A stretch of 64,000 nucleotides of DNA from Gimesia maris. Lineage in GTDB: Bacteria > Planctomycetota > Planctomycetia > Planctomycetales > Planctomycetaceae. Positions 8,720 through 22,646 of this stretch are shown piece after piece; positions within the stretch are counted from its first letter, which is position 1; every line of letters begins with the position of its first letter. The position numbers were made by a program, and so were the translations under genes. Location: positions 5,905,001 to 5,969,000 of the forward strand of contig NZ_CP042910.1 in the NCBI RefSeq assembly GCF_008298035.1. Direction: 5' to 3'. The notes beneath the pieces were generated by a model. It did not search any database. It saw only the letters and a list, made by a program, of their open reading frames with translations, and had not been told where the DNA came from.

Positions 8720-9265
8720 ATGTCGACTTCCACATCGTCTTTACATCCAGATACAAGGGGTTTGTTTACATCTTTACTGAGTAAAGATCGTTTACGGATT
8801 TTCGGTTATATCCGAACACTCGTCCCCAATAATTCAGATGCAGAAGATGTTTATCAGCATGTCTGTTTAACACTGTGGAATAAGTTCGATGAATTTGATC
8901 AGGACCGGGACTTTTTCTCCTGGGCCTGTGGAGTCGCTTTTTTTACTGTTTGCAATTATCGAAGAAGTATTGGAAGAGATCGACATTTTTTCAATCAGGA
9001 ACTCATTGAAACCATGTCCCATGAACGTGAAGAACATTTAAACAACCACGATATTCGCCTCGATTTTCTGCAGGACTGCATGCAGAACTTGAATTCCTCA
9101 GACCAGCAGTTACTAAAAAATGCAGTATACGAAAATCAGTCGGTGAAAGAGATCGCCAAAACTGCAGGAAAAACAATCCAAACCCTTTATAACCGCCTCT
9201 CACTCCTCAGACGTGAACTGGCGGCTTGTATATCCCGTAAGCTTCAAAGTGAGCGTCAACAATAA
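8720..9265 (+). CDS. ECF-type RNA polymerase sigma factor (Rhodopirellula/Verrucomicrobium family)
   Basis: 181 residues, a normal ECF sigma length. Region 2 covers about 25-95: RLRIFGYIRTLVPNNSDAED, then DVYQHVCLTLWNKFDEFD and FFSWACGVAF, the core- and -10-binding part. Region 4 covers about 118-178, with the helix-turn-helix around SVKEIAKTAGKTIQTLYNRL. The sequence fits the planctomycete/verrucomicrobial sigma-70 subfamily (TIGR02989 type). Its TAA overlaps the ATG of the next gene by one base (TAATG), the usual arrangement with a FecR-type membrane partner. It probably redirects RNA polymerase in response to a signal relayed by that partner. Target promoters unknown. Confidence 0.9.
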   Translation: MSTSTSSLHPDTRGLFTSLLSKDRLRIFGYIRTLVPNNSDAEDVYQHVCLTLWNKFDEFDQDRDFFSWACGVAFFTVCNYRRSIGRDRHFFNQELIETMSHEREEHLNNHDIRLDFLQDCMQNLNSSDQQLLKNAVYENQSVKEIAKTAGKTIQTLYNRLSLLRRELAACISRKLQSERQQ

Positions 9266-10935
9266 TGTCGGTACAGGAAATTCCCCCGGAATTCGAAGAA
9301 TTGTTGAATCGGCTACTCGATAGCCCGGAGGGAGAGTTTTCACCTACCGAGTTCGAAGCATTTCAAAACATTCTGAAAAGCAGCCCCGATGCGATGCACC
9401 AGTATTTTGAGTACATCGACATCAATACCGGTATCAAATCAGACTGGAACGAACGACTCCAGTCCCTTGAACAGATCGTGACGCGAGAAACTCCAGTTTC
9501 TGTGCGTTCCCCTTCCGTTGCACAGATTCACGCACCAGGCCCACGACGTTCCCAATACATAAACTACGCGCTGGTGGCTGCTGCATCCATGATGGTCTTC
9601 CTGCTCATGGAATGGTTGGTTTCGGGACACTTCTTCTGGGATCAGCCCCAGATCGCTCAGACAGAAACCGCTGTTGTCAACCTCCCCTATATCGCGACGC
9701 TCACACGTGCCACCGATTGTGTCTGGGGAGGAGACGCTCCTCCTAAATTTTCAGGACAGCGACTGTTATCACAAGACCTCTTCCTTGAAGAAGGATATGC
9801 AGAATTTCGCTTCGATACCGGCGTCCGCCTTGTGATCGAAGGCCCGACCAAAATCAAAATGGATTCTGCCTGCTGTGCCACCGTTTCCTCCGGGAAGGTT
9901 GTCCTGCATGGGTACGAAGCAGCTCCGGAATTTGCATTAATCACACCCCAACTGACGTTTCACGATATTGGAACAGAATACGGCGCTAAAATCGACGCCG
10001 ATGGCGAAGTCGATCTGCACGTATTCGAAGGGGCTGTACGCGTTGATCCCAATCAGGACAATCAAATGTTCGTTGCATCCATCATTATCAAAGAGGGTCA
10101 GGCAAAACAGCTCAAAGAGGACCGGATCGACGATATTCAGATCAAACCGGAAGATTTTAAACGCGAAGTCCCCACCAATCCCAAAAACATTCAGGCGATT
10201 CGAGAAGAAACCAGGGCCTACGACAGCTTTCACCCTGCCATCATCAGTGATCCGGAAAGTTTTTCAGACTGGAGAAATGCCGGAATGGGCTGGAAGAACC
10301 CCTGGCGAAACAAGTTGAATGGCGGAGAACCGGCCCACGGTGACAGCCAGCCCCTTAACTCACTGACGGGTTCGAAACTGGCCGAGGATCAACTGGGGCT
10401 CGTTGAACTGAGAAAAGGGAATACCGCCTGGCGCACCCTGGAAAAGCCGGTCCGCATGAATAAAGATGCGATCTACTACTTAAGCTTCTACATGCAGAAA
10501 CAGAATTCCGGAAAAGCATCAGATAAGCAATATGGGAACCTCTCCCTGATGACATTTACACCGGCACAATCTCAGAATAAAATATTAATCGGCATGAGTT
10601 CCCACAATTTCTCCACCCTGCAGGCAGGAATGCAGGTCATCGAGAACGCTCCACCGTTACAGACGAATAAGAATTATTTCTTTGTCGCCAAGATTGTTGC
10701 CAGCGAGAATGCTTCAGATCAGATTTTCATGCGTGCTTTCGCGCCGGAAGAAACGATCCCCGGCCATGAGCCCCCCGTCTGGACTTGTGCATCGGATCCA
10801 TTCAAGGACTCCTCCGTGTACGATCAGGTCAGACTGCACGCCGCCCGCAATGCAGAATTTCTGTTTGACGAACTACGCATCGGCACCACCTGGGATTCGG
10901 TAATCAATACTCAATCTCCAGAACTCGCTCCCTGA
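9265..10935 (+). CDS. FecR-domain transmembrane partner of the ECF sigma factor
   Basis: 556 residues. The cytoplasmic N-terminus (about 1-92: EFEELLNRLLDSPEGE, MHQYFEYIDI) is of the type that precedes FecR domains in planctomycetes and probably binds the sigma factor. One membrane helix spans about 93-113 (YALVAAASMMVFLLMEWLV). A FecR-like domain follows (about 170-275), with YAEFRFDTGVRLVIEGP, VSSGKVVLHG, FHDIGTEYGAKI and VHVFEGAVRV-type strings. The C-terminal 230 residues look like a beta-sandwich of carbohydrate-binding character but no named domain is certain. Translationally coupled to the sigma factor. Role inferred: sensing of an extracytoplasmic signal and control of the sigma factor. 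Confidence 0.82.
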   Translation: MSVQEIPPEFEELLNRLLDSPEGEFSPTEFEAFQNILKSSPDAMHQYFEYIDINTGIKSDWNERLQSLEQIVTRETPVSVRSPSVAQIHAPGPRRSQYINYALVAAASMMVFLLMEWLVSGHFFWDQPQIAQTETAVVNLPYIATLTRATDCVWGGDAPPKFSGQRLLSQDLFLEEGYAEFRFDTGVRLVIEGPTKIKMDSACCATVSSGKVVLHGYEAAPEFALITPQLTFHDIGTEYGAKIDADGEVDLHVFEGAVRVDPNQDNQMFVASIIIKEGQAKQLKEDRIDDIQIKPEDFKREVPTNPKNIQAIREETRAYDSFHPAIISDPESFSDWRNAGMGWKNPWRNKLNGGEPAHGDSQPLNSLTGSKLAEDQLGLVELRKGNTAWRTLEKPVRMNKDAIYYLSFYMQKQNSGKASDKQYGNLSLMTFTPAQSQNKILIGMSSHNFSTLQAGMQVIENAPPLQTNKNYFFVAKIVASENASDQIFMRAFAPEETIPGHEPPVWTCASDPFKDSSVYDQVRLHAARNAEFLFDELRIGTTWDSVINTQSPELAP

Positions 10936-11199: not shown

Positions 11200-11233
11200 G
11201 GGGCTTGAGTATTTTGCTCAAGCCCCATTTTTA
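11200..11233 (+). terminator. Strong terminator hairpin
   Basis: GGGGCTTGAG (11200-11209) and CTCAAGCCCC (11217-11226) form a perfect 10-base stem with a 7-base loop, followed by ATTTTTATT. The T-rich side faces the plus strand, so it would end transcription from the sigma/FecR operon, 265 bases after its last codon. It adjoins the stop codon of the convergent regulator gene and may also serve that side weakly. Confidence 0.75.
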
Positions 11234-11941
11234 TTCTGGTTGAACTTCTGAAACAAGCCCCTGGAACTGCATTCGGATCATCACACGCGCATGCTCCAGA
11301 TCACGATTGCGAATCGCAGCTGCCAGCTCTGAATGTTCCCAGATAATCCGCGATTTCTGGTCTGAACTGGAATGACCGGTTCCAGAAATGTTCCGAAAAT
11401 ACTTTGCCAGAATCTGCTGCATGCCCGCCACATAGACAGAATTTGTCATTTCCAGTACCAGTGAATGAAATGCCAGATCAAGTTCTATTTCCTGTTCCCA
11501 ATCTTCCTGCTCCAGATATTGCTCCATCTCTGCAACGATCAGATCCAGTCGGTCCAGTTGATCCTCAGTCGCATACTTGACCGCCAGTTCGATGGCACCA
11601 ATCTCCAATACATAGCGCAACATTCCCAGTTCACGTTGCTCCTGCTCAGAGACAGCCAGTAAGGGAATGCTGTCCGAAAGCAACTGCATCAAGTCAGGAC
11701 GTTGTACAACCAGCCCTTTCCGTTGCCTGACATCCAGAATGCCCAGGGCACGTAACCGGCTGACCGCTTCCCTGACAATGGGCCTGGAAACCTGGTATTC
11801 CTCTGCCAACTGCCCCTCGGTCATGAAAACATGGCCTTCAGGCAACTGTTCTTTCATGATCCTTCGACGGATTTTCTCCGCCAGTACTGTCGCCATCGAA
11901 TTTTGTAGTGGTTCGGCCATATTGCAGATATTATCATACAT
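11231..11941 (-). CDS. GntR-type (FadR/FCD subfamily) transcriptional regulator
   Basis: 236 residues. The N-terminal winged helix-turn-helix (about 12-80) has MTEGQLAEEYQVSRPIVREA and SRLRALGILDVRQRKGLVV, the GntR DNA-binding signature. The C-terminal all-helical domain (about 95-230) has the FCD layout, including ELDLAFHSLVLEMT and HSELAAAIRNRD, where Asp/His side chains normally bind a metal and the effector. No clear ribosome site precedes either ATG (11941 or 11920), so the start is uncertain. It diverges from the aldolase/fusion operon. FadR-type regulators usually repress a neighbouring sugar-acid or amino-acid catabolic operon until its substrate appears; that role is inferred here. 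Confidence 0.88.
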   Translation of the reverse strand: MYDNICNMAEPLQNSMATVLAEKIRRRIMKEQLPEGHVFMTEGQLAEEYQVSRPIVREAVSRLRALGILDVRQRKGLVVQRPDLMQLLSDSIPLLAVSEQEQRELGMLRYVLEIGAIELAVKYATEDQLDRLDLIVAEMEQYLEQEDWEQEIELDLAFHSLVLEMTNSVYVAGMQQILAKYFRNISGTGHSSSDQKSRIIWEHSELAAAIRNRDLEHARVMIRMQFQGLVSEVQPE

Positions 11942-12049: not shown

Positions 12050-12066
12050 TTATTATCATATAATAA
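12050..12066. promoter_or_regulatory. Candidate FadR-type operator
   Basis: TTATTAT-CAT-ATAATAA is a perfect 7-base inverted repeat with a 3-base centre, about 55 bases before the aldolase start. It contains TATAAT (12059-12064), which could be the -10 box of the aldolase promoter. Its left part, TATTATCATA (12051-12060), recurs exactly at 11929-11938 over the regulator's own start. Shared sites at both divergent genes suggest control of the operon and autoregulation. Confidence 0.5.
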
Positions 12067-12121: not shown

Positions 12122-12952
12122 ATGAGAGCCAGCCGCATCAAACACAAGCTCAGCCAGAACGAACCGGTCCTGATTACTCAATTGCATCTGCTGGACCCTT
12201 CACTGTTTGAGCTCACCAGCCTGATGGGCTTTGATGGTATCTGGATGGACATGGAGCACCATACCTATAGCCTGGAGACAGCCACACAACTGATGCGGGC
12301 GGCACGCATCGGCTCCTCAGATATTCTTGCCCGGCCTGCGAATGGGGAATTCATGAGAATCGGTCGCATGCTCGAGGCCGGTGCGCAAGGCATCATGTAC
12401 CCTCGCTGCAGCAATGCAGCGGAAGCAGCAGAAGTCGTAAAATGGTCCAAGTTCGCTCCACTGGGGAAACGAGGCTTCGATGGTTCAGGAGCGGACATGC
12501 CTTATTGCACCATGCCTGTCTCAGACTATGTGCAACAGGCGAATGAAAACACTTTCATCACCATCCAACTCGAAGAACAGTCCGCCGTCGACCAGGCGGA
12601 AGAAATCGCCGCGGTTCCCGGCGTCGACGCGTTAATGCTGGGCCCTGCCGATTTTTCAATACTCGAAGGTTTCCCCGGTCAGTTCAATCATCCACAAATG
12701 CAGACTGCCATCGAGACGATTGCCACCGCTGCAGCCAATCAGGGAAAACACTGGGGCATGCCCACTTTTAACCTGGAACATGCCCAGCAGCTTCTGCAGC
12801 GGGGCGCCAGAATGCTGTACCACATGGCTGATATCATTTTCGTGAAAAATGGCCTTGAACAGATGCAGCAGCAATTCAGCCAGATCGGATTTACATTCGA
12901 AAATCAACTGAAAGATTCAGCCACTCACTACACGCAGGGAAAGAAATCATGA
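12122..12952 (+). CDS. HpcH/HpaI-family aldolase
   Basis: 276 residues, slightly longer than the usual 250-265. Class II pyruvate-type aldolase fold: FDGIWMDMEHHTYSLE near the N-terminus, ARPANGE, then GAQGIMYPRCSNAAEA with the conserved GAxGI.xP pattern, the metal-ligand Glu region ITIQLEEQSAV and the metal-ligand Asp in MLGPADFS. Family members cleave 4-hydroxy-2-oxo acids, or 2-keto-3-deoxy sugar acids, into pyruvate and an aldehyde. A ribosome site AGGA stands 9 bases before the ATG. Its last four bases (ATGA) overlap the start of the fusion gene. Substrate unknown; the divergent FadR regulator suggests an inducible catabolic route. Confidence 0.88.
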   Translation: MRASRIKHKLSQNEPVLITQLHLLDPSLFELTSLMGFDGIWMDMEHHTYSLETATQLMRAARIGSSDILARPANGEFMRIGRMLEAGAQGIMYPRCSNAAEAAEVVKWSKFAPLGKRGFDGSGADMPYCTMPVSDYVQQANENTFITIQLEEQSAVDQAEEIAAVPGVDALMLGPADFSILEGFPGQFNHPQMQTAIETIATAAANQGKHWGMPTFNLEHAQQLLQRGARMLYHMADIIFVKNGLEQMQQQFSQIGFTFENQLKDSATHYTQGKKS

Positions 12953-15285
12953 CTGAGTTTTTACCCGACGATCAGGAACTGTTTGCCAGCCAGCTCAAAG
13001 ACTTTGTTCCCCCTGACAGCTTTGACGCCCATGCCCACCTCTACCGGCCACAGGATGCCATCTCCGCCCTGCCCCCCGCAGCAGAAAACGAACAGGGCTT
13101 TTCAGGCTGGAACGAATACTGTGAGAACCTGGAACTCTGGATGGGCTCACTGCGTCCTTCAGCCGGACTGTTTTTTGCCATCCCGAAGCCTACCCTGGAT
13201 CGCAAGCCGGCGAATCAGTTCATTCTGAGCGAGTTAGCAGATCAGCCTGGCTGTCGAGCACTTCTGCTGGTCACTCCTGAAGATTCGCCCGAAGAAGTCG
13301 AAGCACAAATTCTCGCAGGCAAGTATAGCGGCTTTAAAGTTTACCACGTCTATGCCAATCGAAAAGATACCCTGCAGGCAGAACCCCAGGAGTACATTCC
13401 GGAATGGGTCTGGGAACTTTCAAACCGTTACAGCCTGGCCATCATGCTTCACATGGTTCGCGCCCGGGCGATGGCAGACCCCATCAATCAGTCCTACATC
13501 CGTGAACACTGTCTGCAATACCCGGATGCGAAACTCATTCTCGCACATGCCGCCCGGGGGTTCTGTGGAAACCATACCACGGAAGGCATCGCATCACTCC
13601 GTGGGATCGACAATGTCTTCTTCGACACTTCTGCCATTTGTGAACCACAGCCTTTCGAAGCCATCCTGCGAGAATTTGGTACCAGCCGCCTGCTGTTCGG
13701 AACCGATTTTTCTGTCAGCGAAATTTTTGGCCGCTGCGTGAGCATTGGCGATGGTTTCTTCTGGCTGGGCGAAGAGAATGTGAACTGGGAATCGACGACC
13801 TTCGCTAAACCGGTTCGCGTGGGACTGGAATCGCTACTGGCAATCAAACAGGCCTGCCATACACTGCGACTGAACGACGCGGACATCGAACGTATCTTCT
13901 GCTTTAATGCCCGTGCCATGCTGGGGATTGAAACGAGCTCAACCAAAAACAAAACCCAGGAAACCTACAAACGGGCCAAACAGTTAATTCCCGGCGGTAC
14001 CCAGTTGCTGAGCAAGCGGCCTGAAATGTTTGCCCCGGACTGCTGGCCTGCTTACTTCCGGGAAGCGAATGGCTGCGAAGTCATCGACCTCGACGGAAAA
14101 ACCTATCACGACCTGGCAACCTCGGGCATCGGGTCCTGCCTGCTCGGCTATCGGGACCTCGATGTGACCGACGCCGTTGTCCGCCGTGTTCAACTGGGCT
14201 CGATGAGCTCGCTGAATTCACCAGAAGAAGTGGAACTCGCCGAGTTGCTGACCAGCCTCCACCCCTGGTCTGACCAGGCCCGCTTCTGCCGGACCGGCGG
14301 AGAATCGATGGCCATCGCTGTCCGTATTGCCCGCGCGAAAACCGGACGCGATGAAATTGCCTTGTGTGGCTATCATGGCTGGAGCGACTGGTACCTCGCG
14401 ACAAACCTGCCTCGCAAATCGAACGAGTCTGGAACCTCTCTCGATAAACATCTCCTGCCGGGCCTGGATCCGTCCGGGGTTCCTTCTGGCTTGTCTGAAA
14501 CCACGCATCCCTTTACCTACAATGACATCGACGGCCTGAGAAAGATTATTCAAGAACGGGGCTCAAAACTGGCAGCGGTCGTTATGGAGCCGACTCGTTT
14601 CATTCACCCCGACCCCGGCTTTCTGGAAGCAGTTCGCGAACTCTGTGATGAATGCGGCGCGGTTTTCGTGATTGATGAAATCACAACAGGCTGGCGTCTC
14701 GCGATGGGGGGCGCTCACCTGCACTATGGAATTGAACCGGACATCGCCGTTTTCGCCAAAGCGTTAGGAAACGGGCATCCGGTCGCAGCCATCATCGGCA
14801 GGCGTTCCGTGATGGATGCAGCCGAAACGTCATTCATCTCCAGCACCTACTGGACCGAAGGCGTGGGCTCAACGGCTGCATTGGCCACCATTCAGAAAAT
14901 GCAGACTGTCAACGTCCGCGAACACATTCAGCAGACTGGTGAGGCCTTCCGCTCAGGCTGGCTGGAGCTCGGCCGGCAACACGACATACCGGTGAAAGCC
15001 GTCGGACATGCCGCTCTGCTGCACCATCAGTTTGACCATCCCCAGGCAGCCGAACTGGGAACGCTGTTTACCATTCGCATGCTGGAAAAAGGTTTCCTGA
15101 CCGGCAGTGGCTTTTACCCCACGCTCGCCCATCAGCCACGCCACATCCAGAATTATTTTGCTGCTGCTGACCCGGTTTTTGCGGAACTCGCAGCGGCACT
15201 TTCATCTGGTGACTTATCCAGCCGGCTCAAAACGCCCGTCAGACATTCCGGTTTCGCCCGACTGACGCCGAGCCCGAAAACATAA
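12949..15285 (+). CDS. Fusion of amidohydrolase (TIM barrel) and class III PLP aminotransferase
   Basis: 778 residues, about twice the length of either family. Residues 1 to about 325 form an amidohydrolase-2-type barrel: metal-binding H28-x-H30 in FDAHAHLYRP, ILAHAARGFCGNHTT with further His residues, and LLFGTDFS with D253 as the likely catalytic Asp. A short linker (about 327-335) leads to a class III aminotransferase resembling glutamate-1-semialdehyde aminomutase: LIPGGTQLLSKRPE, GGESMAIAVRIARA, GYHGWSD, VFVIDEITTGWR with the cofactor-binding Asp, and the PLP lysine K604 in FAKALGNGHP. Both halves look complete and the frame is open throughout. It is translationally coupled to the aldolase. 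Inferred role: hydrolysis of a lactone or amide followed by amino transfer or migration in one pathway. Substrate unknown. Confidence 0.85.
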   Translation: MTEFLPDDQELFASQLKDFVPPDSFDAHAHLYRPQDAISALPPAAENEQGFSGWNEYCENLELWMGSLRPSAGLFFAIPKPTLDRKPANQFILSELADQPGCRALLLVTPEDSPEEVEAQILAGKYSGFKVYHVYANRKDTLQAEPQEYIPEWVWELSNRYSLAIMLHMVRARAMADPINQSYIREHCLQYPDAKLILAHAARGFCGNHTTEGIASLRGIDNVFFDTSAICEPQPFEAILREFGTSRLLFGTDFSVSEIFGRCVSIGDGFFWLGEENVNWESTTFAKPVRVGLESLLAIKQACHTLRLNDADIERIFCFNARAMLGIETSSTKNKTQETYKRAKQLIPGGTQLLSKRPEMFAPDCWPAYFREANGCEVIDLDGKTYHDLATSGIGSCLLGYRDLDVTDAVVRRVQLGSMSSLNSPEEVELAELLTSLHPWSDQARFCRTGGESMAIAVRIARAKTGRDEIALCGYHGWSDWYLATNLPRKSNESGTSLDKHLLPGLDPSGVPSGLSETTHPFTYNDIDGLRKIIQERGSKLAAVVMEPTRFIHPDPGFLEAVRELCDECGAVFVIDEITTGWRLAMGGAHLHYGIEPDIAVFAKALGNGHPVAAIIGRRSVMDAAETSFISSTYWTEGVGSTAALATIQKMQTVNVREHIQQTGEAFRSGWLELGRQHDIPVKAVGHAALLHHQFDHPQAAELGTLFTIRMLEKGFLTGSGFYPTLAHQPRHIQNYFAAADPVFAELAAALSSGDLSSRLKTPVRHSGFARLTPSPKT

Positions 15286-15299
15286 CTGCCGGTCTTATT

Positions 15300-16238
15300 T
15301 TAAGCACCTGACGAACCCGTATTCACCACCGGCTGTGTATGACGGTCACTGCATAAGACAACCAGCAGATTGGAGACCAGTGCTGCGCGACGGTCTTCAT
15401 TCAGTTCCACAATTTTCCCCGCAGACAAGTGCTGCAGTGCCATGTCCACCATTCCAACAGCCCCCTCTACGATTTTGGTCCGGGCTGCCACGACGGCCTG
15501 CGCCTGCTGTCGCTGCAACATCGCAGCGGCAATCTCCTGTGCATAAGCCAGATGACTGATCCGGGCCTCTATGACTTCCACACCTGCTTTATCCAGCCGC
15601 TCCTGAATATCCACCATCAGTTGATCACAGATATCCTGCGTATTACCTCTTAACGAGAGTTCATGGTCCTCACTGTCATAAGGATGACGACTGGCCAGGT
15701 TTCGTAACGCTGCTTCGCTTTGCACCGAGACAAAATCCTCGTAATCATCCACTTCGAACATTGCCTCTGCAGTATTCACCACCCGCCAGACCACAACCGC
15801 TGAAATATCAATCGGATTCCCGTCCCGGTCATTCACTTTGGAAGGACGCCCGCCTGACCTCGTTTTGTGCTGGATGATATTTCCCGCCTGATCTTTCTGC
15901 TCTGGCGTGGAAACCGAGCCCGTTTCAAAATTCCGGATCCGCAGGGAAATCTTCTTCTTGGAGTAAAACGGATTGACCCAGAAGAATCCGGACTGCATGA
16001 CGGAGCCTTTATACTCTCCAAACAGCAGCAGAACCCGCGCCTGATTGGGGGCAATCGCCATGCAACCAAATAACCCGACCAGACAGGCAGGGCCAGTCAT
16101 GACTCCCAGCAAAATCAGCAGCCCGCTCTCTGAAACAGCTCCAGCAACAAAAAGAAGCCCCGCTGCCAATATACCTGCGAGACAAACGGTCAGCGGAAAC
16201 CAGCCCGACATTGGATGATAGACACGTTCTTCAGCCAT
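15300..16238 (-). CDS. SPFH/band 7 domain membrane protein
   Basis: 312 residues. Two or three hydrophobic segments lie at the N-terminus (about 13-32, 35-62), then the SPFH domain: NQARVLLLFGEYKGSVMQSG, FFWVNPFYSKKKISLRI, NFETGSVSTPEQKDQAGN, DGNPIDISAVVVWRV, SEAALRNLASRHPYD and LDKAGVEVIEARISHLAYA. A helical tail (about 235-285) contains MLQRQQAQAVVAARTKIVEG, where family members oligomerise. Such proteins build membrane-microdomain scaffolds and are often linked to protein quality control. It converges with the fusion gene, 14 bases apart. The iron-transport genes lie upstream on the same strand, but more than 200 bases intervene, so it is probably separately transcribed. Confidence 0.9.
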   Translation of the reverse strand: MAEERVYHPMSGWFPLTVCLAGILAAGLLFVAGAVSESGLLILLGVMTGPACLVGLFGCMAIAPNQARVLLLFGEYKGSVMQSGFFWVNPFYSKKKISLRIRNFETGSVSTPEQKDQAGNIIQHKTRSGGRPSKVNDRDGNPIDISAVVVWRVVNTAEAMFEVDDYEDFVSVQSEAALRNLASRHPYDSEDHELSLRGNTQDICDQLMVDIQERLDKAGVEVIEARISHLAYAQEIAAAMLQRQQAQAVVAARTKIVEGAVGMVDMALQHLSAGKIVELNEDRRAALVSNLLVVLCSDRHTQPVVNTGSSGA

Positions 16239-16697: not shown

Positions 16698-19001
16698 TCA
16701 GATAAACAGCATACCAACCTGGTAAGAAACCAGGGCGCCCAGATAAGCCAGCGTTGTCATGTAAGTAAAGGATACAATGGGCCAGACCCAGCTGTTCGTT
16801 TCCCGTCGCATCACCATCAAAGTCGCAGCGCACTGGGCACATAACGCAAAAAAGACCATGATCGAAATCGCCACGGGAATATTAAACACCTTCCGACCAT
16901 CCGGCCAGGTCGCTGAACGAATCGAGCCGATCAATCCTTCGCTCTCTTCGTCCACATCTCCTCCCAGACTGTAGATCGTTCCCAGTGTCGAAATGATGAC
17001 CTCCCGGGCAGGAAAAGAGGCAATCACGCCCACTCCGATTTTCCAGTCCCAGCCCAAAGGCCTCACTGCCGGCTCAATCAGATGACCGGCTTTCCCGAGA
17101 TAACTGTTTTCGATCAGTTGGCCACTGACATGGTTCTGTCTTTCGTACAGCAACGATTGAGTTGACTCCAGATTATTCAACTGAACCTCCAGACTTTCCA
17201 CTTTTTCCGGCGTCTCTATTTTCGCAGCTTCCAGTTGTGCTTCTGTTTTCTCTACCGAAGCATCTACTGTCTCAATCTGCTCCTGCAGTGTGAACTGCTC
17301 GCTGTGATCCCCGGGAAAATAGCCCGCAGCCCAGATCACGATCGAGGTTGCAAAAATCAGTGTTCCGGCTTTCACCACGAATGATTTTCCCCGGTTATAC
17401 ACGCGGTAAATCACATTTCGTGGCGAAGGCCATTTATACCCGGGCAGTTCCATCACAAAAGGAGCCACATCCCCTTTAAAGCAGACTCGCTTCAGGAACC
17501 AGGCCACGGGAATCGCGATCACGGCACCGATTGAGGACATCGCAAACAGCACAATGCCCTGCAGCGAAACGAAGGTCACTTCACCCAGTGAGAAATAAAT
17601 GACATTGGGAATAAAAGCAGCGATGAACAGTGTATAAACGGGCCAGCGTGCCGAACAACTCATCAACGGTGCCACCAGGATTGTGGTCAGGCGTTCGTGA
17701 CGATTTTCAATCACCCGCGTCGCCATAATGCCGGGGACAGCACAGGCATAGGATGACATGAGGGGAATAAACGATTTTCCACTCAGCCCCAGGCTTCGCA
17801 TTAAGCGGTCCATAATATAAGCAGCGCGTGCCATATACCCGCTATCTTCCAGAACGGCGATGAAGAAATACAATATCACAATCTGAGGCAGGAAGATCAG
17901 CACGCCTCCTACTCCGGCAATCACACCATCGACCAGTAGACTTCGCAGAGGACCGGGAGCGATCAGCGACTCGATCGCTCCTCCCACCGCTGTCTGGGCG
18001 GCTTCGACCTGATCCATCAGCGGCCCGGCCCAGGTAAATACAGACTGAAACACAAAGAACATCAATACGATAAAGAAGATAAAACCGAAAGCCGGATGGG
18101 TCAGCCAGCGATCAATTTTATCCGAAGTCGTTTCCTGTTGAATTTCCGGTTGCTGAATCACTCCCTGTAATAATTCACGTGTCCAGCCGTAACGGACCCG
18201 GGCTTCGGTTGCAGGGACCGCACATCCCGCCTCTTTCAGACGCAGACGTGCCTGATGCAGATGCTCGATCAGACCGTTGTGGGTATGATGTTCAAAGTAA
18301 GATTCAACGTACCCACCCACATCCAGCAACAGACGGTCGACGAGAAAATCAGGAGGACTTTCATCCTGGTTTGACTCCAGCTTTTCCCGCAATTGTGCAC
18401 GTTCTGTATAAAATGACTCCGGGAATAACTGCTGAACTTCATGCCGACTGCCCGGATCGATCTTCAGAATCGCCGCCTTAAGTTCTTTGATCCCTTTCCC
18501 ATGATGGGCCTCGGTACAGACCACGGGCTGACCAAGTCGTTCGGACAAAGCAGTCGCATCAATCTCGATACCACGGGATCGCGCCAGGTCACACATATTC
18601 AAGACGAGCACTACCGGTGTCGAAAGATCAAGAATCTGGCTGAACAGATACAGGTTTCGTTCCAGGTTGGATGCATCCGCAATACAGATAATCGCATCAG
18701 GCCGCGGAACACCTTTCTGCCTGCCCAGCAGCACATCCACCGCCAGCATTTCATCGATTGATCTCGGTGCCAGACTGTAAGTACCAGGCAGGTCGACCAG
18801 GTCGATCTTGCGCCCCTCCCATGTCACGCTACCCACTTTCTTTTCAACCGTCACGCCGGGGAAATTGCCAATATGGGCGTGGCCGCCTGAAAGCTGGTTG
18901 AACAGCGTGCTCTTGCCCGTATTTGGATTGCCAATAATGGCAATCGTCATTTTCTGTTGTTGCACAGTTTGCTGCTTCGGAACGGTGGAAGGGTTGGTCA
19001 T
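16698..19001 (-). CDS. feoB: Ferrous iron transport protein B (GTPase-coupled permease)
   Basis: 767 residues, normal for FeoB. The N-terminal G domain has G1 GNPNTGKST (residues 24-32), a G2 threonine in GVTVEKK, G3 DLPGTYSL (about 72) and G4 NMCD (about 134). A helical GDI-like segment follows, then the membrane core with two Gate-type repeats (GGVLIFLPQIVILYFFIAVL, DSGYMARAAYIMDRLM, SFIPLMSSYACAVPGIMATR and CSARWPVYTLFIAAFIP). A coiled-coil insert of about 65 residues (EQIETVDASVEKTEAQLEAA) lies in a late loop and is longer than in enteric FeoB. The start is either the first ATG or M18; no ribosome site decides. Encoded between feoA and the Cys-rich protein gene. Confidence 0.96.
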   Translation of the reverse strand: MTNPSTVPKQQTVQQQKMTIAIIGNPNTGKSTLFNQLSGGHAHIGNFPGVTVEKKVGSVTWEGRKIDLVDLPGTYSLAPRSIDEMLAVDVLLGRQKGVPRPDAIICIADASNLERNLYLFSQILDLSTPVVLVLNMCDLARSRGIEIDATALSERLGQPVVCTEAHHGKGIKELKAAILKIDPGSRHEVQQLFPESFYTERAQLREKLESNQDESPPDFLVDRLLLDVGGYVESYFEHHTHNGLIEHLHQARLRLKEAGCAVPATEARVRYGWTRELLQGVIQQPEIQQETTSDKIDRWLTHPAFGFIFFIVLMFFVFQSVFTWAGPLMDQVEAAQTAVGGAIESLIAPGPLRSLLVDGVIAGVGGVLIFLPQIVILYFFIAVLEDSGYMARAAYIMDRLMRSLGLSGKSFIPLMSSYACAVPGIMATRVIENRHERLTTILVAPLMSCSARWPVYTLFIAAFIPNVIYFSLGEVTFVSLQGIVLFAMSSIGAVIAIPVAWFLKRVCFKGDVAPFVMELPGYKWPSPRNVIYRVYNRGKSFVVKAGTLIFATSIVIWAAGYFPGDHSEQFTLQEQIETVDASVEKTEAQLEAAKIETPEKVESLEVQLNNLESTQSLLYERQNHVSGQLIENSYLGKAGHLIEPAVRPLGWDWKIGVGVIASFPAREVIISTLGTIYSLGGDVDEESEGLIGSIRSATWPDGRKVFNIPVAISIMVFFALCAQCAATLMVMRRETNSWVWPIVSFTYMTTLAYLGALVSYQVGMLFI

Positions 19002-19403: not shown

Positions 19404-19959
19404 CTAAGATCTGATATTTATCAATGGCTGAAATAGATGTAACCCTTTGCCCTGCTGAAGCAAATGTAATTTGAGATTATGCGGATTCTTCCGGGTTTCC
19501 ACTAAGACGACCTGAGAAAAGAGCCGCACCGTGACATGTACAGAACAGGAATCTCTTTCCGATCAGTTATGGCGTTCCATTCGATATACATGCACATAAA
19601 AACATACTGTGATCATTAATTATGATGGTCTCATAAAGTTTTCGAGAAACCAGTGATTGTCTCTCCTCATGCAGACTTCTAAAATCCTGTGTGGTCTTAA
19701 CCTGTTATCGATACTCATTTTTGCTCAACATAAACAGGTAATGACCTCCCCCTGAATCTGTATTTCCGCAAATGCCAGAGTAAGTTCTTTCAGGCTGGCA
19801 CAATTATTAATTATACAGGAGGGCTCCGGCGCTCAACTGATTTCTCATCGTTACACATACTGTTTTATTACGCTCAAAGAATAATATAGATAGGATGCAG
19901 ACTCTATTTTGTCGACAATTATGGTCGACGTCTTTTTCAACTTTTCAGGAGTTCAAGTA
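19404..19959. other. Non-coding gap between feo promoter and first pseudopilin gene
   Basis: About 555 bases, AT-rich. No reading frame with family resemblance. Right before the pseudopilin start stands CAGGAG with 8 bases to the ATG. The stretch 19795-19822 contains TTATTAATTATA and AGGAGGG, but no gene starts nearby; I could not assign it. Confidence 0.4.
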
Positions 19960-20886
19960 ATGGAAAAAATGTTGCTCACAAGAAAGCGTGGTTTCACGCT
20001 TATCGAACTGCTGGTCGTGATTGCCATCATCGCGATTCTTATTGCATTATTATTGCCAGCAGTTCAACAGGCGCGTGAAGCCGCCCGTCGCTCGACATGC
20101 AAGAACAATCTCAAACAGATTGGTCTCGCATTGCACAACTATCACGACAACTTCAATATGTTTCCTCCGGGCGATGTCCGCAGAACTTATGGTTCCGGAG
20201 TTCAGTCATGGACGACCAGTCAACTGGGCTGGATTCCTCGCATTCTCCCTTTTCTCGATCAGGCTGTAATCTATAACCAGATCAACTTCGAGATGGAACA
20301 CGGAGTCAGCGCTGCTCCTAACAACAGTCTCCGTGCGGAAAAAATTCCTGCCGTTCGCTGCCCCAGTGACTCTTCACGTCAGCCCTCTTCATCTTATGGT
20401 CCCACCAACTACCTGGCCTGTCGTGGTAATAATACTACCACCACAAGTAACAAAGGGACTTCCATGTTCTGGAACAACAGTGACGTCAGAATCCGCGACG
20501 TCGAAGACGGTACTTCGAATACCATGATGGTTTCAGAAACATTTGCCAGCGCTGACCTGTGTACGGAACAACCTTCAGGCGGCGTCTGTCCTGCCACATG
20601 TACGAAGTATACCGGAGGAGCACAACAGGGATACTCCTGGATGTATGCTTCATTATATGAAGCCGCCTACTACGGAACTGTTTACACCCCCAATAATAAA
20701 CAACCAGACTGTGGTGGCAGTTCCAGCTCTCAGGCAGCACATCTGTCTGCTCGCAGTAAGCACACAGGTGGGGCTCATGTCCTGCTCGGCGACGGCTCCG
20801 TTCGCTTTGCCGGAGACAACATCGACACAACCATCTGGAGAAACCTCGGCAACCCCGCTGATGGAAATGTGCTGGGTGAGTGGTAA
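19960..20886 (+). CDS. DUF1559 pseudopilin-like protein, copy 1
   Basis: 308 residues from the ATG at 19960, which has CAGGAG 8 bases upstream; the frame from 19909 adds an unlikely leader. The N-terminus is a type IV pilin/pseudopilin signal: KKR-like positive charge, then G-F-T-L-I-E-L-L with the conserved E five residues after cleavage at Gly11, and a long hydrophobic helix ending [15 protein letters not shown]1559 body follows ([36 protein letters not shown]), ending with the H-X9-DG motif ([16 protein letters not shown]). Six or more Cys residues suggest disulfides outside the cytoplasm. These proteins are greatly expanded in planctomycetes and probably processed by a prepilin peptidase; function unknown. 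Confidence 0.92.
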
Positions 20887-21293: not shown

Positions 21294-21707
21294 TAAGCAA
21301 TCCTGAACCGCAGCTGAAAATTGCTTTCCCGTAATACAGAGACAGCTTTTTTAAGAACTCTCAGTATTGTTCACCACTCTAAACCAACTGTACACAATCA
21401 CTTAGATCAATTATTTCTGTTTCCTTTCAGCAGAATACACTGGATTTTTCCGTCTGATTCCACTATAGTAAGACAATCTATTTTACTGGTAATTTCATGT
21501 AGATTTCACATGCAATCGGCCAGAGAGAGGCTTCAAATCATTCACATTCGCGTGTTAACTCACAAACCGAAGCCTGAATTCAATTTCAAATATCTCTAAT
21601 CTCAATTGAAAATTTATTGCTGCCCCAGAAGTTATCAATCTGGCAATGCGTTCGCACATCCATAAATTTACCCTACAAAATTTTCTCGTTTCATTTTCTA
21701 TATTTTG
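21294..21707. other. Non-coding gap before pseudopilin copy 2
   Basis: About 414 AT-rich bases with no supported gene. It ends in the ribosome site of copy 2. The motif TGCGTTCGCACAT (21647-21659) recurs with one change upstream of copy 3 (22992-23004) and may be a shared promoter element. Confidence 0.4.
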
Positions 21708-21719
21708 GGAGTTCAAGTA

Positions 21720-22646
21720 ATGGAAAAAATGTTGCTCACAAGAAAGCGTGGTTTCACGCTTATCGAACTGCTGGTCGTGATTGCCATCATCGCGATTCTT
21801 ATTGCATTATTATTGCCAGCAGTTCAACAGGCGCGTGAAGCCGCCCGTCGCTCGACATGTAAGAACAATCTCAAACAGATTGGTCTCGCATTGCACAACT
21901 ATCACGACAACTTCAATATGTTTCCTCCAGGAGATGTCCGCAGAACTTATGGTTCCGGAGTTCAGTCATGGACGACCAGTCAACTGGGCTGGATTCCCCG
22001 CATTCTCCCTTTTCTCGATCAGGCTGTGATCTACAATCAGATCAACTGGGAAATGGAACACGGAGTCAGCGCTGCTCCTAACAACAGTCTCCGTGCGGAA
22101 AAAATTCCTGCCGTTCGCTGCCCCAGTGACTCTTCACGTCAGCCCTCTTCATCTTATGGTCCGACCAATTACCTGGCCTGTCGTGGTAATAATACTACCA
22201 CCACAAGTAACAAAGGGACTTCCATGTTCTGGAACAACAGTGACGTCAGAATTCGCGACGTCGAAGACGGTACTTCGAATACCATGATGGTTTCAGAAAC
22301 ATTTGCCAGCGCTGACCTGTGTACGGAACAACCTTCAGGCGGCGTCTGTCCTGCCACATGTACGAAATATACCGGAGGAGCACAACAGGGATACTCCTGG
22401 ATGTATGCTTCATTATATGAAGCCGCCTACTACGGAACTGTTTACACCCCCAATAATAAACAACCAGACTGTGGTGGCAGTTCCAGCTCTCAGGCAGCAC
22501 ATCTGTCTGCTCGCAGTAAACACACAGGTGGGGCTCATGTTCTGCTCGGCGACGGTTCCGTTCGCTTTGCCGGAGACAACATCGACACAACCATCTGGAG
22601 AAACCTCGGCAACCCCGCTGATGGAAATGTGCTGGGTGAGTGGTAA
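21720..22646 (+). CDS. DUF1559 pseudopilin-like protein, copy 2
   Basis: 308 residues, identical to copy 1 apart from residue 110, where Phe becomes Trp (INF to INW). The start at 21720 has GGGAG 8 bases before it; a TTG 15 bases upstream is in frame but less likely. All family marks are kept: GFTLIELL prepilin cleavage site, N-terminal helix, Cys residues and the H-X9-DG ending. It has its own terminator but, unlike copies 1 and 3, no small lipoprotein gene after it. Very recent duplication or ongoing gene conversion explains the match. Confidence 0.92.

Follow-up and report, generated by a model that had tools for sequence, protein, structure and literature searches.

We analysed a 64,000-nucleotide stretch of the Gimesia maris genome (contig NZ_CP042910.1, positions 5,905,001 to 5,969,000 of the forward strand), referred to here as the window and numbered from its first base. 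Its plus strand carries, at 12949..15285, a gene for a 778 aa protein in which an N-terminal amidohydrolase domain (AH; Amidohydro_2, PF04909) is joined to a C-terminal class III aminotransferase domain (AT; PF00202); AH and AT also denote below the genes that encode these domains. The product is a genuine bifunctional enzyme, conserved and put together repeatedly, whose two domains are of known kinds and whose combination and operons are new.

The 778 codons form a single frame with zero internal stops. Pfam places Amidohydro_2 at residues 26-327 of the protein (45.2 bits; gathering cut-off 26.4) and Aminotran_3 at residues 369-718 (157.1 bits; cut-off 30.5). The AH half (residues 26-327; 13024..13929), delimited by Pfam, alignment and a predicted structure, is predicted to form a TIM barrel, and the AT half spans residues about 333-763 (13945..15237) by Pfam and alignment. 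The metal site of amidohydrolases follows a pattern of HxH after strand 1, a histidine after each of strands 5 and 6, and an aspartate after strand 8; H28, H30, H168, H200 and D253 lie at predicted strand ends in agreement with this pattern, and K130 terminates predicted strand 4 of the barrel. These six residues and R203 show no variation among the 29 fusions that were aligned, all of which match Amidohydro_2 at E 1e-3, and the same is true in the AT half of D576 and the Schiff-base lysine K604 (29 of 29). The protein would be expected to bind both a metal and pyridoxal phosphate (PLP). A sequence-only reading of this DNA had described two complete enzymes in one frame, with H28/H30, D253 and K604 present, and the Pfam scores and residue conservation bear this out. 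Because the predicted structure of the full-length protein is of moderate quality (pTM 0.72), we infer no channel between the two sites.

Distribution and recurrent assembly of the fusion

The first genome set comprised 59 genomes: that of the window, 16 others of the same genus and 42 more. The full-length fusion frame is present in the window's own genome and in 15 of the 16 (it is missing from G015, which is 74% complete), and also in four of the 42 (G019, G020, G030 and G054). A protein search returned 5252 proteins at E 1e-3 out of 7998 scored candidates, of which 120 were listed; both Pfam domains occur in 119 of the 120 homologues among the matches listed, the exception, P0119, being AT alone. 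In a set of loci from named genomes (80 kept out of 201), both halves were matched in 72, AT only in seven (L082, L106, L114, L116, L117, L121 and L123), and two adjacent genes in one (L115). A direct check showed the halves in one frame in 70 of the 72, and the other two, L069 and L081, remain open for 788 and 789 codons; open reading frames (ORFs) in these loci were called crudely, as the longest frame, and the target ORF was missed in L021, L092, L093, L098 and L110. A putative further Amidohydro_2 gene was seen by eye just upstream of the fusion in the same two loci (L069:8656-9528 and L081:8677-9528). Fusion loci are mostly from Planctomycetota and Verrucomicrobiota. The two-domain architecture thus recurs in other genomes, as the sequence-only reading had asked of it; neither a frameshift or stop nor a loss of metal or PLP residues was seen, and close relatives did not have the halves only as unlinked genes. 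A frameshift or a chimaeric gene is ruled out by the same full-length frame in the same-genus genomes and in most of the fetched loci.

The two halves have had different histories. In five of the fusions (L059, L063, L065, L067 and L068) the AT half matches that of the window protein at 64.7-66.5% identity, whereas the AH half reaches only 26.3-27.2%. The AH of L059 shares 69% identity with the unfused one of L164 (G177) and 61% with that of L034 (G036), and the window AH shares 43-44% with its unfused counterparts in L160 and L167. Given this contrast, and with unfused relatives specific to each AH type, the fusion has arisen, or has had its AH exchanged, more than once; the sampled rows require at least two fusion origins or a swap of AH beneath a fused AT. 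In the AT tree the window group and the L059 group fall together, along with the AT-only L082 (support 99/92). For the rows sampled, the AH tree spoke against a single ancient fusion, which was rejected (difference in log-likelihood 206, approximately unbiased test p 4.7e-69), a p-value not to be taken at face value, since the group was named after a quick tree had been seen and long branches are present; the contrast in identity between AT and AH halves is plainer evidence for recurrent joining. In the AT tree, too, the fused rows fail to form a single clade (log-likelihood difference 221), which can be explained by AT-only rows nested among the fused ones through loss of AH.

In other genomes the counterparts of the two halves are separate genes within operons of catabolic appearance. 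The unfused gene orders include AT-PhyH-AH (L022 and L023), PhyH-AT-AH (L167) and AH-AT (L115), and in L038 and L039 the gene that immediately precedes the fusion is again that of the PhyH dioxygenase. In L160 (G248) one strand carries in succession genes for an SSS symporter, a 771 aa propeller protein, an HpcH aldolase (57% identical to the window aldolase described below), a Gfo/Idh oxidoreductase, PhyH, a HEAT protein, a short-chain dehydrogenase/reductase (SDR), AT and AH. Co-occurrence was sampled by AH and AT profile searches of 244 genomes of the phylum. The AH profile found 19 genomes at E 1e-50, with 13 core ones at or below 1e-110 (gap 1e-115 to 1e-72), and the AT profile found 26 at E 1e-90, with 16 below 1e-160 (gap 1e-167 to 1e-118). 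At these tight cut-offs, which were chosen after the gaps in E values were seen, all 13 core-AH genomes are among the 16 with AT, 10 having the halves fused and three unfused (G034, G177 and G248); the three AT genomes without AH are G073, G121 and G141. AH and AT appear to be functionally coupled, because unfused copies adjoin in L022, L023, L115, L160 and L167 and because every core-AH genome sampled also holds AT; to this extent the coupling proposed from the fusion alone stands. Among 11 genomes with AT alone at the examined locus, AH is found elsewhere in seven.

The operon and its neighbours

Upstream of the fusion in the same operon is a 276 aa HpcH/HpaI-family aldolase gene (12122..12952, plus strand), recognised from its ORF and from Pfam and NCBIfam models. 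It scores 92.3 bits for HpcH/HpaI (PF03328; cut-off 25) and falls below the NCBIfam equivalog cut-offs for HpaI (TIGR02311; 132.5 vs 368.8) and GarL (TIGR03239; 126.5 vs 406.75). The four-base overlap that the sequence-only reading had noted is present on the plus strand as ATGA at 12949..12952, where the aldolase stop meets the fusion start. Through it translation of the two genes is probably coupled, and the fusion would be made together with the aldolase under the control of a divergent regulator.

That regulator (11231..11941, minus strand; ORF, Pfam and NCBIfam) is a GntR/FCD protein of up to 236 aa. The description of it as FadR-type is apt only when taken broadly, for the FCD group as a whole (FCD domain 73.5 bits, Pfam cut-off 24.3), the match to FadR itself (TIGR02812) being weak at 20.6 bits against a cut-off of 249.2; the best NCBIfam model is NanR (PRK03837), at 75.7 bits and below its cut-off of 260. 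The true start is probably downstream of the called one, perhaps at Met8 or later, because Met8 suits the alignments to relatives better. Two exact copies of the motif ATTATCATAYA flank the regulator-aldolase intergenic region, and the window has no other exact match to it. They mark two plus-strand candidate operator boxes, put forward with reserve on this motif match: ATTATCATACA at 11930..11940, which is overlapped by the called regulator start (window 11918-11941), and ATTATCATATA at 12052..12062. L001 and L002 keep the two copies exactly, and several other relatives keep one; with one mismatch allowed three matches were observed, a number reached by 15 of 100 shuffles.

The aldolase is not a fixed companion of the fusion. 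In the 16 fusion-bearing genomes of the genus it is adjacent in 10, nearby and inverted in three, on another contig in one and without an orthologue in two; the inverted cases (G002, G003 and G004) have the regulator-aldolase pair about 4 kb off. An obligatory aldolase partner is ruled out by AT-bearing genomes that have no orthologue, and the earlier treatment of the aldolase as a set member of the pathway has to be given up (two of the 16 without an orthologue, four not adjacent).

Neighbouring families were counted at 70 loci (12 kb or more) and in 19 control windows of the same class, a small control restricted to Planctomycetota, whereas the loci come from further phyla as well and were themselves the source of the family definitions. 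Families seen at the loci and in none of the controls were SSS (24), SDR (22), HpcH (19), PhyH (18), PSCyt (14), GntR (10) and the secreted families f7 (16) and f4 (16); DUF1501 was counted 19 times vs 1, class IV aminotransferases 9 vs 1 and DUF1559 8 vs 2. Gfo/Idh was near 15 of the 70 and none of the 19, an upper value because the family absorbed part of a propeller protein via a joined frame. Immediately upstream of 77 fusion ORFs, on the same strand and within 350 bases, the gene was f4 in 11, HpcH in five, SDR in five, 3HCDH in three, PhyH in two, Gfo/Idh in one, SSS in one and another family in 23. A sialidase reading of the secreted propellers was set aside, the BNR matches being weak and sub-threshold and not taken as proof; an esterase (SASA) reading of family 18 was also dropped, its match being sub-threshold. 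The closest solved relatives of the L160 SDR are gluconate 5-dehydrogenases; those of its Gfo/Idh protein are an unnamed oxidoreductase and scyllo-inositol/L-glucose dehydrogenase, and those of its PhyH protein are phytanoyl-CoA dioxygenase, SnoK and EvdO2, the latter two of which act on sugars.

A second related locus lies in the window genome itself (G000), at about 1.71 Mb (L173:1920-9545). Genes for an f7 propeller, Gfo/Idh (56% to the family) and SDR (61% to the L160 SDR) follow one another there, and opposite them are genes for another propeller protein, an M14 peptidase and a regulator of the GntR-LacI type. This SDR type was found in 16 of 16 tested AT-bearing genomes vs 3 of 16 without AT.

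Other features of the window include an ECF-type sigma factor gene that overlaps by one base a membrane-protein gene with a weak FecR match (8720-10935). On the minus strand are an SPFH/band 7 gene (15300-16238) and a FeoB-type ferrous iron transporter gene (16698-19001), reported as downstream of it. Nearly identical DUF1559-type prepilin-like genes lie in tandem at 19909-20886 and 21705-22646, and one more copy follows at about 23.0 kb.

Possible roles of the fusion

The reading that we favour, while holding it tentatively and at somewhat less than even confidence, is that the fusion works in the breakdown of amino-sugar acids, with AH cutting an amide (or lactone) and AT removing the freed amine. 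The leading guess for the substrate is a sialic-acid-like or related amino sugar, and AT is taken to be a transaminase, not a mutase or lyase. An amino sugar or its oxidised form would be taken up, and the SDR and Gfo/Idh enzymes of the second locus would dehydrogenate it earlier or later in the route; AH would then hydrolyse the amide (or lactone) bond, AT would take off the freed amine, and the aldolase, where present, would cleave the deaminated sugar acid to give pyruvate. The fusion would serve to keep the freed amino compound close to the AT site. A set of enzymes of this kind resembles oxidative sugar-acid pathways, and the sugar setting is suggested by SDR, Gfo/Idh and PhyH, by GenB3/GenB4 among the structure-matched AT relatives, and by ATs in nonulosonate-type clusters. 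The short pathway drawn by the sequence-only reading thus survives as coupled halves in a sugar-acid-like setting with a 2-oxo-acid aldolase, and yields where it made the aldolase more than optional.

The nonulosonate-type clusters (L186, from a genome of the family Lachnospiraceae, L187, L188 and L189) contain AT together with NeuB and cytidylyltransferase genes, which tested positive with Pfam in L186 and L189 for NeuB and in L186, L187 and L188 for the cytidylyltransferase. Their ATs fall outside a clade of 38 fused and AT-only rows (SH-aLRT 98) and, with a midpoint root, are closer to it than is the unfused L160-type clade; on that rooting they are the nearest AT relatives outside the fused clade. 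They differ from the fusion in having no AH joined and in their biosynthetic setting. In L188 (2954-5023) a related AT is fused to a cytidylyltransferase, which is another fusion of the AT family. In the table of a report on Legionella sg6, Lp6_764, also named glutamate-1-semialdehyde 2,1-aminomutase, lies between PseG and an acylneuraminate cytidylyltransferase (PMC3694923); the comparison with AT made here is one of gene setting. B. subtilis spsF is described as a putative cytidylyltransferase of a legionaminic acid route (PMC7439481).

An amide is tentatively preferred to a lactone as the bond cut by AH because three unrelated families of C-N-cutting hydrolases adjoin this AT. PIG-L de-N-acetylase genes lie beside AT in L186 and L187, the former cluster also holding an Amidohydro_2 gene, and in L123, from a genome of the same family as L186, AT has a gene of the creatininase family and a propeller gene as neighbours. 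The logic has a counterpart in caprolactam degradation, where a caprolactamase opens the ring amide and an omega-aminotransferase then removes the amine (PMC6061476). That route is like the proposed one in that an amide is opened and the freed amine transaminated, and unlike the fusion in using an unrelated 5-oxoprolinase-like hydrolase, separate genes and a non-sugar substrate.

Several observations weigh against our reading. At loose cut-offs six of the 19 AH genomes are without AT and 13 of the 26 AT genomes without AH. AT halves occur alone, four of the 11 AT-alone genomes showing no AH, and the passing of an intermediate between the two sites, which the fusion had been thought to imply, is no more than a possibility. 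There is no aldolase orthologue in G013, G016 (both of the same genus), G019, G020 and G034, all of which bear AT. In the SDR comparison 12 of the 16 AT-bearing genomes belong to one genus (5/5 genera vs 3/16), and the PhyH dioxygenase is without a clear role in the scheme. Finally, the best fold match of the AH half is a cog3618 protein, from a group noted for sugar lactonases and not for amidases, and this match would favour a lactone; 4do7 and 4dlf of Burkholderia multivorans, both of cog3618, have 15% identity.

A lactonase is the strongest alternative, and we regard it as possible though rather doubtful. A dehydrogenase would make an amino-sugar lactone, AH would open it, AT would act on the amino-sugar acid, and aldol cleavage would follow, much as in the oxidative non-phosphorylating L-fucose route but with the aminotransferase in place of the dehydratase there. 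We take 4do7 and 4dlf to be L-fuconolactonases and cog3618 to be a sugar lactonase group; these cog3618 amidohydrolases are not fused, and the two structures were not listed by the AH-half profile (A2) at E 1e-3.

That AT is an aminomutase or PLP lyase needing no external keto-acid acceptor, as in glutamate-1-semialdehyde aminomutase, seems unlikely. Its top curated models by score are PRK06209 and hemL (TIGR00713) and its top Foldseek matches are glutamate-1-semialdehyde aminomutase structures; at 229.1 and 204.3 bits, it is under the equivalog cut-offs of both models (486 and 527.3). The FumI aminopentol aminotransferase (6hbv, 6hbs) and glutamate-1-semialdehyde aminomutase are about 27% identical to the AT half. 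The name HemL was rejected as a misannotation, as the genome has a separate HemL-like gene (G000:C1:6173944, 32% identical) and the hemL cut-offs are unmet. Among the matches listed, database names for the fusion are only aminotransferase or "glutamate-1-semialdehyde 2,1-aminomutase". The latter name is also carried by stand-alone AH proteins of about 330 aa that have no PLP domain (P0127, P0141, P0144 and others), to which it has probably spread from the fused protein.

Quite improbable is a decarboxylase or hydratase function for AH, of the sort known from the Pfam family's ACMSD, gamma-resorcylate decarboxylase and LigJ branches: the cog3618 proteins score 1.4-1.6 higher, and the neighbour families are sugar-like, not aromatic. 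It is more improbable still that the protein is biosynthetic and supplies a surface glycan with some unusual amino sugar, as its near AT relatives in nonulosonate-biosynthesis clusters and the Amidohydro_2 gene of L186 might suggest, since the fusion's neighbours are symporters, secreted propellers and 2-oxo-acid aldolases, the window operon has a GntR/FCD regulator, and no NeuB or cytidylyltransferase is found among the Pfam-named neighbour families examined around fusions.

Returning to amino-sugar-acid breakdown, a bolder and in our view unlikely extension is that the fusion forms the core of an undescribed catabolism of amino sugars, nonulosonic (sialic-acid-like) or related ones, that derive from the surface glycans of microbes. 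One polypeptide would both de-acylate and deaminate the sugar acid, and AHs of different types would have been joined to this deaminase repeatedly because the two steps have to stay together. Planctomycetota and Verrucomicrobiota are known for glycan turnover. A full-text literature search, which covered few subscription papers, found no description of the fusion, the operon or the route. If amino-sugar-acid breakdown is indeed its role, the fusion would identify the central enzyme by which Planctomycetota and Verrucomicrobiota degrade amino sugars along such a route, and the aminomutase/aminotransferase annotation of a common two-domain enzyme would be corrected. The recurrent joining of the two domains would then point to a coupled pair of reactions that is testable with one purified protein.

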